From Caecibacter massiliensis (GTDB lineage: Bacteria > Bacillota > Negativicutes > Veillonellales > Megasphaeraceae), in assembly GCA_900095875.1 (NCBI GenBank), contig LT608311.1, positions 806,001 through 870,000 of the forward strand: a DNA stretch of 64,000 nt, in the 5' to 3' direction. Each line of letters begins with the position of its first letter. Within the stretch, counting starts at the first letter, position 1. Below the pieces are notes generated by a model, which worked only from the letters and a program-made list of their open reading frames with translations, made no database searches and was not told the DNA's origin. Below are positions 57,698 to 64,000 of this stretch, in pieces. Made by a program: the position numbers and the translations under genes.

Positions 57698-60600
57698 TCA
57701 AATAGCGTTCATCATACTTAGCAGGTTTTGATAGGAATCTACCTGTCCATAGACTACATCGTCCGTTGAAATTTCATTGAACAAAGTCTTAGCGCATTTA
57801 ATCTTGGCCTGTTCAATGGGACGCAAATCCATGCTTTCCATAGAGCCCTTTGTTTCAGCTACAAAGTAAATATGCTTCACAGTTCCCTTCTGAAATGCTA
57901 TCGCCCAGTCCGGTGCATAATTTCCGACAGGTGTCGGAATCTGGAACCCCCGTGGCAATTTAGCATACACAACCACTTTATCGTCTAAATCCATGTCTTC
58001 TGCAAATTTTCGCTCTATAGATTTTTCTGCTGTTCCATCAGTAAATACATAGTCCTGCACATTTTTCTTGGCCGGGTACGCCTTAGAAAAATCCTTGTTT
58101 TTTTCAGCTGTAAAGATTTCAGAATCATAGGTACCATCCGTCCTATTATACGTAATGTCATCGACAATCATGGTAGCCTTTTCTTCATTGATAAGTTTCG
58201 TTACCTTGGAAATGAATTCTTCCGGATTATGTCGGTACATTGCAAATTTCGCAGGAGAAATTCCCTTCAGAATCATAGCAACCGTTTTTCTAGTCAAATG
58301 TGTCCCAGCGCCAATTTTGCCAACAAGATCGTACTTGACTTGGCTCGTTTCGCCTCGTTTCAAATCGTATGTATGGCTTTTTTCTGATACAAAACCATTC
58401 CCTGATTTTATAGTCTCAGCTGACCAATCGTCGCCTTGCTTCCCTTTTGTTACGGTATACTGCAATTGAGAAACAAAGAGCTTCTCATCAATATGCTGAA
58501 TCGCTTTTTGAATCAGCTCCTGACTATCAAAATGCACGGTATAACTCCATTTATGGTTAATATAGTTCCAAAGGGTCTGGAATTCTTTCTTATAGAAGTT
58601 ATCATTCAACGCATTTTCCTGAATTTTGGTCTGATGACCGTCTTCAATCATTCCATCCAGTGCATGTTCATCAAAAATGCCCTGAACGAGTGCATGCACT
58701 CCGGCTGTAATGTCTTTTATTTTATCTGGAAGTGGGGCTAAGGTCTTGTTTTCTGCATCAGCACGATACGCATCTGTTACATAACCATCTTCATCTATAT
58801 AAGAATTCTTGACAAGGTAGAAATAAATCATATTTGCCTGGTCACTAGTAACAGTCACCACATCGTCGCCAATTTTAATCCGCTTGCCTTGGAAATATTC
58901 CACTGTAGCTTTGGTCGGACGTTCATACAGGTCGCCTTTAATGTCGTTTTGAAGCGAAGAAACAAAATCTTTATACCCGTCACTGGCAATGACAGTCAGT
59001 TTGTTGATTTCCTGCACTTCTGAACCAAGAACTTGTTCATCCATCCTGTCACCAGACTGATTGACGCAGAGGCGAAGACCACGGCCTACTTCCTGCCTTT
59101 TATTCGTCGTACTGTCTCCCCCATGCTTTAAGGTGCAGATTTGGAAGACATTGGGATTATCCCAGCCTTCACGAAGCGCAGAATGTGAGAAAATGAACCG
59201 CACTGGGTTATCGAGAGAAAGCAGTCTTTCCTTATTCTTTAGAATCAATTCATAAGCGGATTCGTCATCACTGAAATCTGAACCGCGCTTTGTTTTAGAA
59301 TCTACCTTATGCCCTTTCTTGTCAATACTGAAGTATCCTTCATGGGTTGCATGGACATCAATCCGCTTCAGATACTGATCATAGGGTGTATTAAAGAGTG
59401 TCAAATACTCATTCAAAATAGAAATATATTCCTCTTCAAACATTTGCCCATATTCTGAGTTGACTTCATTGCCTTCTTCATCATACTTCCGATAATTCTC
59501 TACCTTATCGATAAAAAACAAAGACAGCGTCTTGATACCGCGGTTATACAATTCCTTTTCCTTCTCGAAATGAGAACGGATAGTTTCCCGAATCTGAACC
59601 CGGCGAATGTCCTTTTCGCTGACATCGCCCAGGACTTCACCCGTGTGGATTTCCGCACCATTGGTAAAGGTCACGACGCCTCGAATCGGGTCAATATCAT
59701 TGACATGATAGCCCTGATACTGTTCCATCTCTTTGGAAAGAGCATACAAATCATCATCGACTCCGACAATACGGGTTTCACGCTTGATGGATTTACCATA
59801 TTTGATTTCAAATTCCAGTCGGGCCATGGGCGGCTTTTTCGGTGAAATGATAATGTTTTCAAGATACAGATAACCATCTGTTCCACGCAAATTATGGATG
59901 TCGAAGCCTTTGACCTCAATCTTTTTGACCAGCTTCATCCGATACGCATCCAGTGCATCCAAGACGTAAACAAGGTCATGATGCTCTTTATGCGTAGCAG
60001 AATAATTCAACGTAAAAAGCGGATGGAATTCTTTCAATGCTTCCTGCGTTTTCTTTCCGCCCATCTTCTGCGGTTCATCAAGAATCACAATGGGCCGGTT
60101 CGCTGCAATTACATCAATAGGCTTTCTTGAGCCGAAATCATCTCTTGCTGAAAAAATAATTCGAGCCGCCTTATCGCCACCTCTGCCTTCTTTATTTTTC
60201 TCTTTATTAAACCCAGCATTGAAAGCCTGTACATTGATAATCATGACCGAGAGGTCTGCACTGGAACTGAAACTGTCGATATCAGTCAAATTTTTAGAGG
60301 TATAAACAAAGAAGCGGGCTTTCTTGCCATACTGTTCCATGAAATGGTCCTGCATGGTCTGAAAGCTCTTCTGGACGCCTTCGCGAATTGCAATGGACGG
60401 AACGACGACGATGAATTTACTCCAGCCATAGCGCTTATTTAACTCAAACATAGTCTTGATGTAGACATAGGTTTTCCCTGTCCCTGTTTCCATTTCTACA
60501 TCCAAAGAACAAGTGCCTAAATGCTTTGCCAGAGAAGACGACTCCTTAATATTATTATCGTTTTGGATATCTCGTATATTGTTTAGCAGCTGATGTGAGT

Positions 60601-60802
60601 CAAGCTCTACCGGTGCATTCGAAAAACCAATGTAAAGGTCTTCATCAGAGACTTCCCAGTTAAACAGATTTTTATCGCGCATCGTTGAACCCGTATCGCG
60701 GCGATAACTCATTTTATTCTGAAATGGCTGTCCGGCAAAAACTTTTACCACGCTGTCCACCGCTGCAGTCTGATAGTCTTGTATGGTAAATTTAAATTTC
60801 AT
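57698..60802 (-). CDS. res: Type III restriction endonuclease, Res subunit
   Basis: A 1034-residue type III Res. The SF2 helicase region shows ETGTGKT (Walker A, about 105), VILDEPQKMGG (motif II), then REGWDNPNVFQICTLK and EVGRGLRLC (motif VI). The C-terminal endonuclease shows PDWAIAFQKGT followed by FVAETKGS, the PD-(E)xK site. It translocates or slides with Mod and cuts DNA when two unmodified sites are met. The start at 60802 is chosen because AAAGGA lies 8 bases upstream and the family begins with this KFKFTIQDYQ; in-frame ATGs at 60811 and 60820 are alternatives. It overlaps the end of the YhcG-like gene only if those are used. Confidence 0.92.
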   Translation of the reverse strand: MKFKFTIQDYQTAAVDSVVKVFAGQPFQNKMSYRRDTGSTMRDKNLFNWEVSDEDLYIGFSNAPVELDSHQLLNNIRDIQNDNNIKESSSLAKHLGTCSLDVEMETGTGKTYVYIKTMFELNKRYGWSKFIVVVPSIAIREGVQKSFQTMQDHFMEQYGKKARFFVYTSKNLTDIDSFSSSADLSVMIINVQAFNAGFNKEKNKEGRGGDKAARIIFSARDDFGSRKPIDVIAANRPIVILDEPQKMGGKKTQEALKEFHPLFTLNYSATHKEHHDLVYVLDALDAYRMKLVKKIEVKGFDIHNLRGTDGYLYLENIIISPKKPPMARLEFEIKYGKSIKRETRIVGVDDDLYALSKEMEQYQGYHVNDIDPIRGVVTFTNGAEIHTGEVLGDVSEKDIRRVQIRETIRSHFEKEKELYNRGIKTLSLFFIDKVENYRKYDEEGNEVNSEYGQMFEEEYISILNEYLTLFNTPYDQYLKRIDVHATHEGYFSIDKKGHKVDSKTKRGSDFSDDESAYELILKNKERLLSLDNPVRFIFSHSALREGWDNPNVFQICTLKHGGDSTTNKRQEVGRGLRLCVNQSGDRMDEQVLGSEVQEINKLTVIASDGYKDFVSSLQNDIKGDLYERPTKATVEYFQGKRIKIGDDVVTVTSDQANMIYFYLVKNSYIDEDGYVTDAYRADAENKTLAPLPDKIKDITAGVHALVQGIFDEHALDGMIEDGHQTKIQENALNDNFYKKEFQTLWNYINHKWSYTVHFDSQELIQKAIQHIDEKLFVSQLQYTVTKGKQGDDWSAETIKSGNGFVSEKSHTYDLKRGETSQVKYDLVGKIGAGTHLTRKTVAMILKGISPAKFAMYRHNPEEFISKVTKLINEEKATMIVDDITYNRTDGTYDSEIFTAEKNKDFSKAYPAKKNVQDYVFTDGTAEKSIERKFAEDMDLDDKVVVYAKLPRGFQIPTPVGNYAPDWAIAFQKGTVKHIYFVAETKGSMESMDLRPIEQAKIKCAKTLFNEISTDDVVYGQVDSYQNLLSMMNAI

Positions 60803-60803
60803 C

Positions 60804-61880
60804 TCAGTCATCCTTTTCATCTCCCTGGGAATTTTCTATGGCCTGATCCGGATGCTGAGTATAGAAAATCGCCTTTTGCTTCTCAACTTCCTCTTTTAAC
60901 TGTTCTTTCGTTGGAAGATATGTCAAGTACTTCGACATAAAGAGTCTGTCATTATCATGCAGGACCGAGTATCGTGCAATATCTGCATCCGTTTCAGAAC
61001 ATAGTAAAATGCCGATTGTCGGATTATCCCCTTCTTTGCGCTTCAGGTCATCATACATCCTCACGTACATATCAATCTGCCCAACGTCTTGATGTGTAAT
61101 TTTTCCCATTTTCAAATCAATCAGCACATAGCATTTCAATTCAATATTGTAGAAAACAAGGTCAATATAGTAATCATCTGTTTCGGTTACAATATGCTGC
61201 TGTCTCGCAACAAAGGCAAATCCTCTCCCCATTTCCATCAGAAAATCCCGGATGTGTGAAAGGATAGCAGATTCCAGGTCACTTTCCAGATACGAATCTT
61301 CATTTTTAAATCCTAAAAATTCTGCAATCACCGGGTTTTTAATTAGTTCATACGTTTCTTTCTGATACTGGGCCGTATGAGTCTTCATTTCTGCAATCAC
61401 TGCGCTCTTTTGAGGTGATTTCAGAAGCCGGTAATAATACTGGGTACTAATATTACGATCCAGTGTCCGAGAACTCCAGCCTTGTTCCGATGACTCACGT
61501 AAATACCAAATGCGGGCATCTTCGTCGCTGACTCGAAGGAGAGAGCGAAAATGTGTCCATGTAAGATTTGGCACGCATGCGTGCCAAATCTCGCGTTCCG
61601 GAAATAGGAGATAAAATTGTCTGTAATTCCGAAGGTTTCTAGCCGTAAAACCTGCCCCAAATTCTGCTGTCAAAACAGCCGCCAGGTTTTTAATCAACGC
61701 TTTGCCATATTGGGCACGCGCCTTTCCTTTCTGTTCTTCTTCTACAATCCGTTTCCCAATATTCCAATACATATCAATCATCGCTTGATTGATAGATTGA
61801 TACGCAGCTTTTCTTCCAGAAGCAATAAGCACTTCTAAATCTTTTATTAAGGAATGATATGAACTAAGTTTTTTTTCCAT
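60804..61880 (-). CDS. YhcG/DUF1016-family PD-(D/E)xK nuclease
   Basis: A 358-residue protein of the YhcG family. The N-terminal DUF1016 domain (about 10-170) has MIDMYWNIGKRIVEEEQKGKA-like sequence and GFTARNLRNYRQFY. The C-terminal PDDEXK domain (about 190-330) contains YYIDLVFYN and VLIDLKMGKITHQDVGQIDMY, giving the Asp and the D-x-K of the active site. YhcG proteins are found near restriction systems and in mobile islands, and are nuclease candidates, but their role is not settled. It sits between mod and res, overlapping mod by 1 base, so it is part of the operon. Its reading frame begins with an A8 tract. Confidence 0.88.
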   Translation of the reverse strand: MEKKLSSYHSLIKDLEVLIASGRKAAYQSINQAMIDMYWNIGKRIVEEEQKGKARAQYGKALIKNLAAVLTAEFGAGFTARNLRNYRQFYLLFPEREIWHACVPNLTWTHFRSLLRVSDEDARIWYLRESSEQGWSSRTLDRNISTQYYYRLLKSPQKSAVIAEMKTHTAQYQKETYELIKNPVIAEFLGFKNEDSYLESDLESAILSHIRDFLMEMGRGFAFVARQQHIVTETDDYYIDLVFYNIELKCYVLIDLKMGKITHQDVGQIDMYVRMYDDLKRKEGDNPTIGILLCSETDADIARYSVLHDNDRLFMSKYLTYLPTKEQLKEEVEKQKAIFYTQHPDQAIENSQGDEKDD

Positions 61881-63815
61881 TAAAGCACCTTCCTTACGGT
61901 CTGCGGACTATAAGTCATAAATATCTGTTCGAAGTTAGCCGCTACGCTGTCATCTGCCATAGAACTATCACGGAATACAGCATAGTACGGATGCTGTTGG
62001 GCAATAGCCGTTACCACTTCTTCGGTAACCTTTTCATCAAAGCAGGCAATCAGATAGCCGTTTTCTACAGAAAAGACTTTTTTACCAGCTATTTCCTTCT
62101 CCTCGATTTTTGACGAAAGGAGTACGCCTAAATCAAGCATCACCTGGATGAGCAAATCTTCTGGCGTACGGTCCTCCTTGATATTATCGGCAAAAAGGTC
62201 CATTTCTGCTTGTTTAATGTCCGCCGGCTTGTAATAGACATCCTTCATGTTGGAAGAGTCCACCCTGAAACAGCGGAAGCCGTAGTCAATATCAGCCCCC
62301 GTTTCCTCTTTGATTTTCTTGCCGGCACGTCGTATGCGTTCTTCACCGATATCACAGATAGTCCTATAGCCCGCTTTATAAGCTTCTGATTTTTTGTCTG
62401 TTAACTCCGGCAATTGCACGAGAATAAACTTAAGATTACTGCTTTTGCTTGAATTTATTTGCATAATAGCGTGTGCCGTAGTGGCAGATCCTGAAAAAAA
62501 GTCCAAAATTATATCATGTTTTTTGGTATTTGCCAGATCAATCAGTTTATATAATAATGTTGTAGGCTTTGGCTTATCGAAATATGATTTTCCGCCAAAT
62601 AGAGACATGACTTCCTTTGTTCCATTTGTGGTCGTACCTATTCGATCTGCGCTGAACCATGAATTATCTACTGAACCAAATTCCTTCTTTTCTTCATAAA
62701 ATGATTTTAATTGCGGACGTCCTTTCCCATCTTTCCCAAAAATAATTCTCCCATCCGCTAAGGCACTGGAGAATTTATCCGGAGAAATTCTCCAGTGCCT
62801 CCCACTTGGTGGGAGGTGCTTCTCTCCAGTAACAGGATTAGTAACAATATAGGTAAGGTTTGGCCTTACATTAGGGGCATCAAACGGATCTGCTTTCCAT
62901 GGGCCTCTTGAATCATTATCTGGATTATCAAATTTCCCTTTATCAAGAGGTAATGGTCTACATACAAAACTATCATTGCGATGCCATTCCATATAATTAC
63001 TTTCTTTAAGCCTTCTGTTTTCTTGTCTTCTTTTTTTTGCATAAACGCATATATATTCATGGTTCACACTGAAGTCTGTATCATTTTGTATTGATGCCCG
63101 TGATTGCCATGGTATCTCAGCGACAAGATTTCGTCTCCCAAATAATTCATTGCATATATTTTTTAAAGAATCTATTTCATTGTCATCAATCGATATAAAA
63201 ATTACTCCATCTTCTGACAAAAGATCCTTTGCAAGCTTTAATCTCGGATACAACATATTCAACCAATCCGTATGAAATCTTCCGTTGCTTTCGCTATTCT
63301 GTACCAGTCGATTTCCCTCTTCATCGGTCTGCCCACTGTTATCTACATAATCCTCAGCCTTCTGCGAAAAATCATCTTCGTAAATGAAGTCATTTCCCGT
63401 GTTATAGGGCGGATCAATATAAATCATCTTTACTTTTCCCAGATATGTTTCCCGCAGGATTTTTAAGGCATCGAGGTTATCACCCTCAATGTATATATTT
63501 TCGCTATCGATGTCCCCCCCCCTGTGTACCATCGCGACTGACCGATTTCTCTCTATCAAGTCTCAGTGTTTTGGCAATGGGCTGATTTGCAAGCATGATG
63601 GTTTTCCGCTTATCCGGCCAGGTAAACTGATAACGTTCCTGCCCATCATCTACGACCTGCGTATTGATTTCCTGCATAAGCACATCTTTATCGATGGCAC
63701 GAACCACATGTCCCTCTTCATCGACGGTTTCTGTGACCGCATTGGGAAACAAGGCCGCCAGTTTTTCGTAATTTTCTTTTGCTAAATCAGCCGTATGCAT
63801 TTCAAGCTTTTCCAT
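61880..63815 (-). CDS. mod: Type III DNA methyltransferase Mod, phase-variable, frame OFF (frameshift in G9 tract)
   Basis: The gene is one Mod methyltransferase split by a frameshift. The N-terminal part (63815 to about 63523) has MEKLEMHTADLAKENYEKL and PIAKTLRLDREKSV, the usual Mod start. The rest (63559 to 61880) has IYIEGDNLDALKIL, the catalytic motif DPPYNTG, FHTDWLNMLYPRL and the SAM-binding DFFSGSATTAHA, as in the beta-class N6-adenine enzymes EcoPI/EcoP15. The target-recognition region is the middle of the protein. Between the parts lie nine G's on the coding strand. With nine the first frame stops 6 codons later; with eight the frames join into about 645 residues. The SD site GGAGG lies before ATG 63815, and the gene overlaps the upstream DUF4391 gene. 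Confidence 0.9.
63504..63815 (-). CDS. N-terminal fragment of Mod as read in the current phase
   Basis: As sequenced, translation from ATG 63815 reads about 103 codons, crosses the G9 tract and stops at 63504-63506. The product is a Mod N-terminus without catalytic motif and is probably inactive. Confidence 0.8.
   Translation of the reverse strand: MEKLEMHTADLAKENYEKLAALFPNAVTETVDEEGHVVRAIDKDVLMQEINTQVVDDGQERYQFTWPDKRKTIMLANQPIAKTLRLDREKSVSRDGTQGGGHR
63514..63522 (-). repeat. Poly-G tract (nine G's) in mod: phase-variation site
   Basis: The plus strand shows nine C's at 63514-63522; the coding strand is CACAGGGGGGGGGACATC. Such homopolymers slip during replication. Loss of one G, or gain of two, restores the full mod frame. 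Confidence 0.88.
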
Positions 63816-64000
63816 GAGTGATTTCCTCCAATTGTTTTTTATAGTCTTGCATCCGGGTATATATTTCAAACCGCTTTTTCGGCTGTTGTTCTTTCCAGGC
63901 AGCGGCTTCTGTCTTGTGAATCAGCTTATTCAGCCGGTTGATTTCATCCTGCCGCTTTAACTGTTCATCTATAGGGAGTTCTTGTCTCTGTAGCACCTCT
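63802..64000 (-). CDS. DUF4391-like protein, 3' part only
   Basis: Only the last 65 or so codons lie in the window; the start is beyond 64000. The visible C-terminus is a charged coiled coil (EINRLNKLIHKTEAAAW, then PKKRFEIYTRMQDYKKQLEEI). That pattern and the position directly before mod (13-base overlap) fit the DUF4391 proteins that often precede type III mod genes. Role unknown; it may bind Mod or DNA. Confidence 0.65.
   Translation of the reverse strand, partial: EVLQRQELPIDEQLKRQDEINRLNKLIHKTEAAAWKEQQPKKRFEIYTRMQDYKKQLEEITHGKA

Follow-up and report, generated by a model that had tools for sequence, protein, structure and literature searches.

A nine-G tract as a probable on/off switch in a type III methyltransferase gene of Caecibacter massiliensis

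When a reading frame breaks within a run of identical bases, is the gene decaying, is the run miscounted, or has a reversible switch been caught in one of its positions? This question is raised by mod, a type III DNA methyltransferase gene of Caecibacter massiliensis lying near the end of the window, by which we mean the whole 64,000-nucleotide stretch analyzed here (GenBank assembly GCA_900095875.1, contig LT608311.1, positions 806,001 to 870,000 of the forward strand). The gene is split between two frames at a tract of nine G's (G9; other run lengths are written likewise). Judging from the sequence and its relatives, it is very probably a slipped-strand contingency locus, that is, a phase-variable type III mod that switches a restriction-modification cassette and is OFF in this assembly. 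The gene comprises the following features, in window positions:

63514-63522, minus strand: nine-G tract in mod, the proposed switch, after codon 97 (C9 on the plus strand)
63504-63815, minus strand: N-terminal frame of mod at G9, 103 residues, from ATG 63813-63815 to TAG 63504-63506
61880-63513, minus strand: catalytic part of mod, 540 codons, in a frame other than the N-terminal one, open from 63559
63395-63415, minus strand: DPPYNTG motif in the catalytic part
62477-62503, minus strand: DFFSGSATT motif in the catalytic part
62423-63145, minus strand: target recognition region, its limits approximate (roughly columns 120-360 in the alignment of the catalytic part)
63530-63532, minus strand: ATG just before the tract, in frame at G9 with the catalytic part (550 residues) and lacking a clear Shine-Dalgarno sequence

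The gene runs on the minus strand from the ATG at 63815, which is preceded by GGAGG and was taken as the true start, to a stop at 61880. The original prediction, made from this DNA alone, had placed nine G's at 63514-63522 of the coding strand, and exactly nine were found. Read directly with G9, the N-terminal frame yields a 103-residue fragment (MEKLEMHTADL...RDGTQGGGHR, then the stop) that ends before every catalytic motif; its TAG is reached three codons past the tract (GGA CAT CGA, the GGA overlapping the tract), and the six codons claimed earlier hold only when counted from the start of the tract. Residues 1-97 of this frame align to intact Mods. The catalytic part with DPPYNTG does continue in another frame, as had been proposed, open from 63559 to 61880. 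It matches Pfam N6_N4_Mtase (7e-33) and PADLOC MTase_III (5e-199), and the N6/N4 methyltransferase domain, the DPPY motif and the type III profile match together identify a type III Mod. Because its alignment to the solved Mods EcoP15I (4zcf) and 6k0w begins at their residues 95 and 96, respectively, the tract separates the N-terminal segment from the methyltransferase core and precedes the catalytic motifs.

Related mod genes were compared, as had been suggested for a check. Among 15 genomes of the genus, one per species, a single other species (G012; the genome holding the window is G000) has this mod with the same tract. There the site reads CTG GGG GGG GAC, placing G8 at the same codons, and a 650-codon Mod runs uninterrupted, which bears out the prediction that eight G's would join the two frames. 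The tract is an in-frame simple sequence repeat whose length sets the mod frame, and lengths giving OFF (G9, G000) and ON (G8, G012) are seen between species rather than within a strain. Outside the genus, 15 homologues with a similar loop (L008, L009, L010, L011, L013, L015, L018, L019, L023, L034, L037, L041, L053, L083 and L133) use a mixture of codons for the glycines; none has six G's in a row, and all read through the site in frame. The tract codons were found in none of 380 genomes of the class besides G012, the other type III mods of the order had no tract, and strain variants of the tract, sought in viral contigs, were not found there. Synonymous differences between the G000 and G012 operons are near saturation (proportion of differing synonymous sites, pS, 0.67-0.78), and both glycine codons stay GGG in the two species with a G on each side. 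GGG makes up 15.6% of glycine codons in the window genes, the tract is the only GGGGGG among their 61 Gly-Gly pairs, and CAG GGG GGG for Q-G-G is expected at about 2% from window codon usage. These figures speak for maintenance of the tract, GGG GGG having been kept at near-saturated synonymous sites.

The genes adjoining mod in the window are:

63802-64000, minus strand: 3' end of a DUF4391 gene, which overlaps the mod start and runs on beyond the window
60804-61880, minus strand: DUF1016/YhcG PDDEXK nuclease, intact, its start overlapping the mod stop (TAATG)
57698-60820, minus strand: type III Res subunit, intact, 1040 aa, matching type III Res models

With helicase and endonuclease domains in the adjacent Res, mod and res make up a type III restriction-modification system, and a PLD-SNF2 helicase gene lies upstream of DUF4391, outside the window. 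The helicase-DUF4391-mod-res order is conserved: matches to helicase, DUF4391 and Res surround mod in 47 of the 82 loci compared, many of which lie on cut contigs, and DUF1016 was also matched in five of these 47. Of the three G8 runs of the genome, one is on the opposite strand of an ISL3-family transposase gene, which adjoins the helicase gene upstream of the cassette (L003:13131-14144, G000) and keeps an unbroken frame. Three IMG/VR contigs classed as viral (L133, L134, L135) carry the cassette without the tract, with Mod identities of 85% and 71%; L135 also has a second C-terminal piece of Res, with 90% identity to the window Res, which can be read as a sign of recombination.

A fixed pseudogene, in which one G-run frameshift inactivated mod and the gene is now decaying, would explain a frame that is broken in the only genome available for the species. 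We consider this quite improbable, as no second lesion was found in the 1.9 kb of mod, Res and DUF1016 are intact, and in G012 the tract is retained within an unbroken frame. Constraint on the two halves of mod also resembles that on their neighbors: against L133, the closest intact relative, the ratio of nonsynonymous to synonymous differences (pN/pS) comes to 0.129 in the N-terminal part and 0.116 in the catalytic part, with 0.093 for the helicase and 0.102 for Res. By these ratios both halves are under purifying selection. An inverted repeat at 62761-62800, within the mod coding sequence, is near-perfect, 20 bases long and without a spacer; no role was found for it. It was considered and set aside as an insertion, since L133 has most of it and the Mod residues encoded there are conserved.

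Homopolymer runs are easily miscounted, which leaves some room for a sequencing or assembly error, with eight G's as the true count and mod ON. The other G9 run of the genome (G000:C2:522636-522644; L001/L106), however, sits in frame where an adhesin with ESPR and YadA-head domains has its signal region, so that G9 runs are not plainly miscalled, and we regard an error as unlikely; even if there were one, the conserved tract would stay a candidate switch, merely ON. That adhesin gene is itself likely to be a second phase-variable gene, ON in this assembly.

The tract might instead pick between two proteins, since at G9 the ATG at 63532 opens into the catalytic frame and could start a 550-residue Mod lacking the N-terminal segment. 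This ATG has no clear Shine-Dalgarno sequence, whereas GGAGG stands before the true start, and the first 97 residues are conserved among the intact relatives that were compared; the ATG follows from the coding of Asp/Asn-Gly-Thr and is probably incidental. We give a choice between two proteins very little credence, and return to G9 as an OFF state.

Several observations weigh against a contingency locus. Runs of at least eight G's number five in the 2.65 Mb genome, two of them nine, and a simple Markov estimate allows more such runs than this; several other G9 runs of congeners are intergenic or in unrelated genes; the length contrast is known between species only, and just two species have the tract; and a tract as short as G8-G9 may switch slowly. 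The second of these means that not every run is a switch. As for a chance run, the frequency is not above the Markov expectation, but conservation in the congener at near-saturated synonymous sites argues against chance, and because that expectation exceeds the runs seen, the case for a switch rests on the position and conservation of the tract and not on run frequency.

The recognition part of Mod follows the pattern of known switchable mods. The center of the protein is 20-35% identical to that of G012 and the flanks 72-87%, and a low-identity center between conserved flanks is also seen against L008 and L010. An allelic recognition domain within conserved flanks is what is found in phase-variable mods bearing simple sequence repeats and, given the diverged center and conserved flanks, recognition regions have evidently been exchanged, as in known mod allele families.

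In the proposed mechanism, slipped-strand mispairing would add or remove a G in the tract after codon 97, interconverting G9 and G8, and tract length would change in living populations. At G8 the frame would run through and full-length Mod be made (ON); at G9 no catalytic motifs would be translated (OFF). Mod supplies sequence recognition and stabilizes Res or raises its amount in EcoP1/EcoP15 (PMC3874151), and for these reasons the OFF state should remove both methylation and restriction. With 1.6 kb left untranslated and with the overlapping starts, loss of mod translation may also lower DUF1016 and Res, a weak step in the scheme because both have their own Shine-Dalgarno-like sequences. An intact Res is in keeping with a restriction system that can be switched, and not just with an orphan regulator. 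The mod switch possibly also affects other genes, as a phasevarion.

Long G tracts were sought in 103 related mods, and two further loci have frame-breaking ones. In Peptoniphilus senegalensis (L030:4700-6569), G10 stands before ERYQFTWPEK, about 58 codons into mod, and breaks the frame, making this gene a candidate for another phase-variable mod, switched at a different site. The gammaproteobacterium AqS3, a metagenome-assembled genome (L071:4657-10532), has three tandem mods before one res. The first two carry G9 and G8 and the third, at a point further into the gene, G11; all three are out of frame as assembled and could form a combinatorial set of switchable type III specificities. The P. 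senegalensis tract and two of the AqS3 tracts lie about 40 codons further upstream than the window tract and the third AqS3 tract further downstream, and since the positions differ they would have arisen independently of it. The mod family thus appears to have gained G tracts more than once. In L033 and L040, runs of G7 leave the mod frames unbroken and were rejected as switches. A related mod in genome G024 (L151/L156) has a break of another kind: about 220 extra bases, with no homopolymer, interrupt it close to where the catalytic part starts.

That a type III mod can be switched by poly-G is established for modH of H. pylori (PMC5700931), and simple sequence repeats are present in 17.4% of type III mod genes according to a figure quoted in PMC7394358. 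The original prediction had offered the locus as a new instance of a phase-variable mod; the sequence supports a tract-bearing phase-variable mod, whereas its novelty is moderate, such mods and the poly-G modH having already been reported. H. pylori modH shares with our gene the type III mod itself, an in-frame poly-G tract, a full-length ON and truncated OFF product, and allelic recognition domains. It differs in that its tract follows the recognition domain, 104 bp downstream, and does not precede all catalytic motifs as ours does, and in that a regulon was demonstrated for modH5, whereas for our gene one is no more than possible (PMC5700931 for modH). The present gene also belongs to another lineage and sits in a helicase-DUF4391-mod-DUF1016-res cassette with an intact Res. 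The P. senegalensis and AqS3 genes are of the mod family of this cassette and have frame-breaking G8-G11 tracts. EcoP15I (4zcf) likewise has Mod and Res subunits, and our Mod aligns to it from residue 95. It is a two-gene system without helicase, DUF4391 or DUF1016 genes, and we know of no phase variation in it. Literature on repeat-driven mod switching in Megasphaera, Veillonella or Negativicutes was not found, in a search that lay outside the REBASE repeat survey of mod genes (NAR 2018, gky192) and so is not proof of absence.

Comparable G runs are numerous in the genus, several of them at genes for surface proteins, and suggest that mod may not be alone. The adhesin run, the TonB-receptor runs and the independent tracts of P. 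senegalensis and AqS3 were also counted in favor of a switch at mod. In congeners G001 and G003, G9-G12 runs occupy the 5' part of TonB-receptor genes (L103, L105, L115, L116; also L125), apparently in frame in some cases and out of frame in others, and these TonB-dependent receptors are candidates for phase variation. In congener G013, G10-G11 runs occur in similar intergenic contexts, TAC-G(n)-TA... (L113, L122, L128): two lie about 190-215 bases upstream of open reading frames that look by eye like secreted autotransporters (L113, L122), and one upstream of a small gene that precedes an ESPR protein (L128), possibly reflecting promoter-type phase variation. A broader reading, which we put forward tentatively and with some doubt, would combine a genus-wide poly-G phasome (TonB receptors, YadA-type adhesins, promoter-region tracts before secreted-protein genes and the type III mod), the mod switch as a phasevarion, and the helicase-DUF4391-mod-(DUF1016)-res cassette as a defense system whose G-tract switches were gained independently in unrelated phyla.

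The poly-G phasome that the genus seems to have is a by-product of more interest than the mod switch. Taken together, these loci would extend poly-G switching of DNA methylation and surface proteins to one more bacterial lineage. For mod itself, G9 OFF here and G8 ON in the congener form a clean natural pair. If the switch works, clones of the same strain would differ in restriction, transformability, phage sensitivity and perhaps gene expression, differences that would matter for genetics and phage work in these bacteria.
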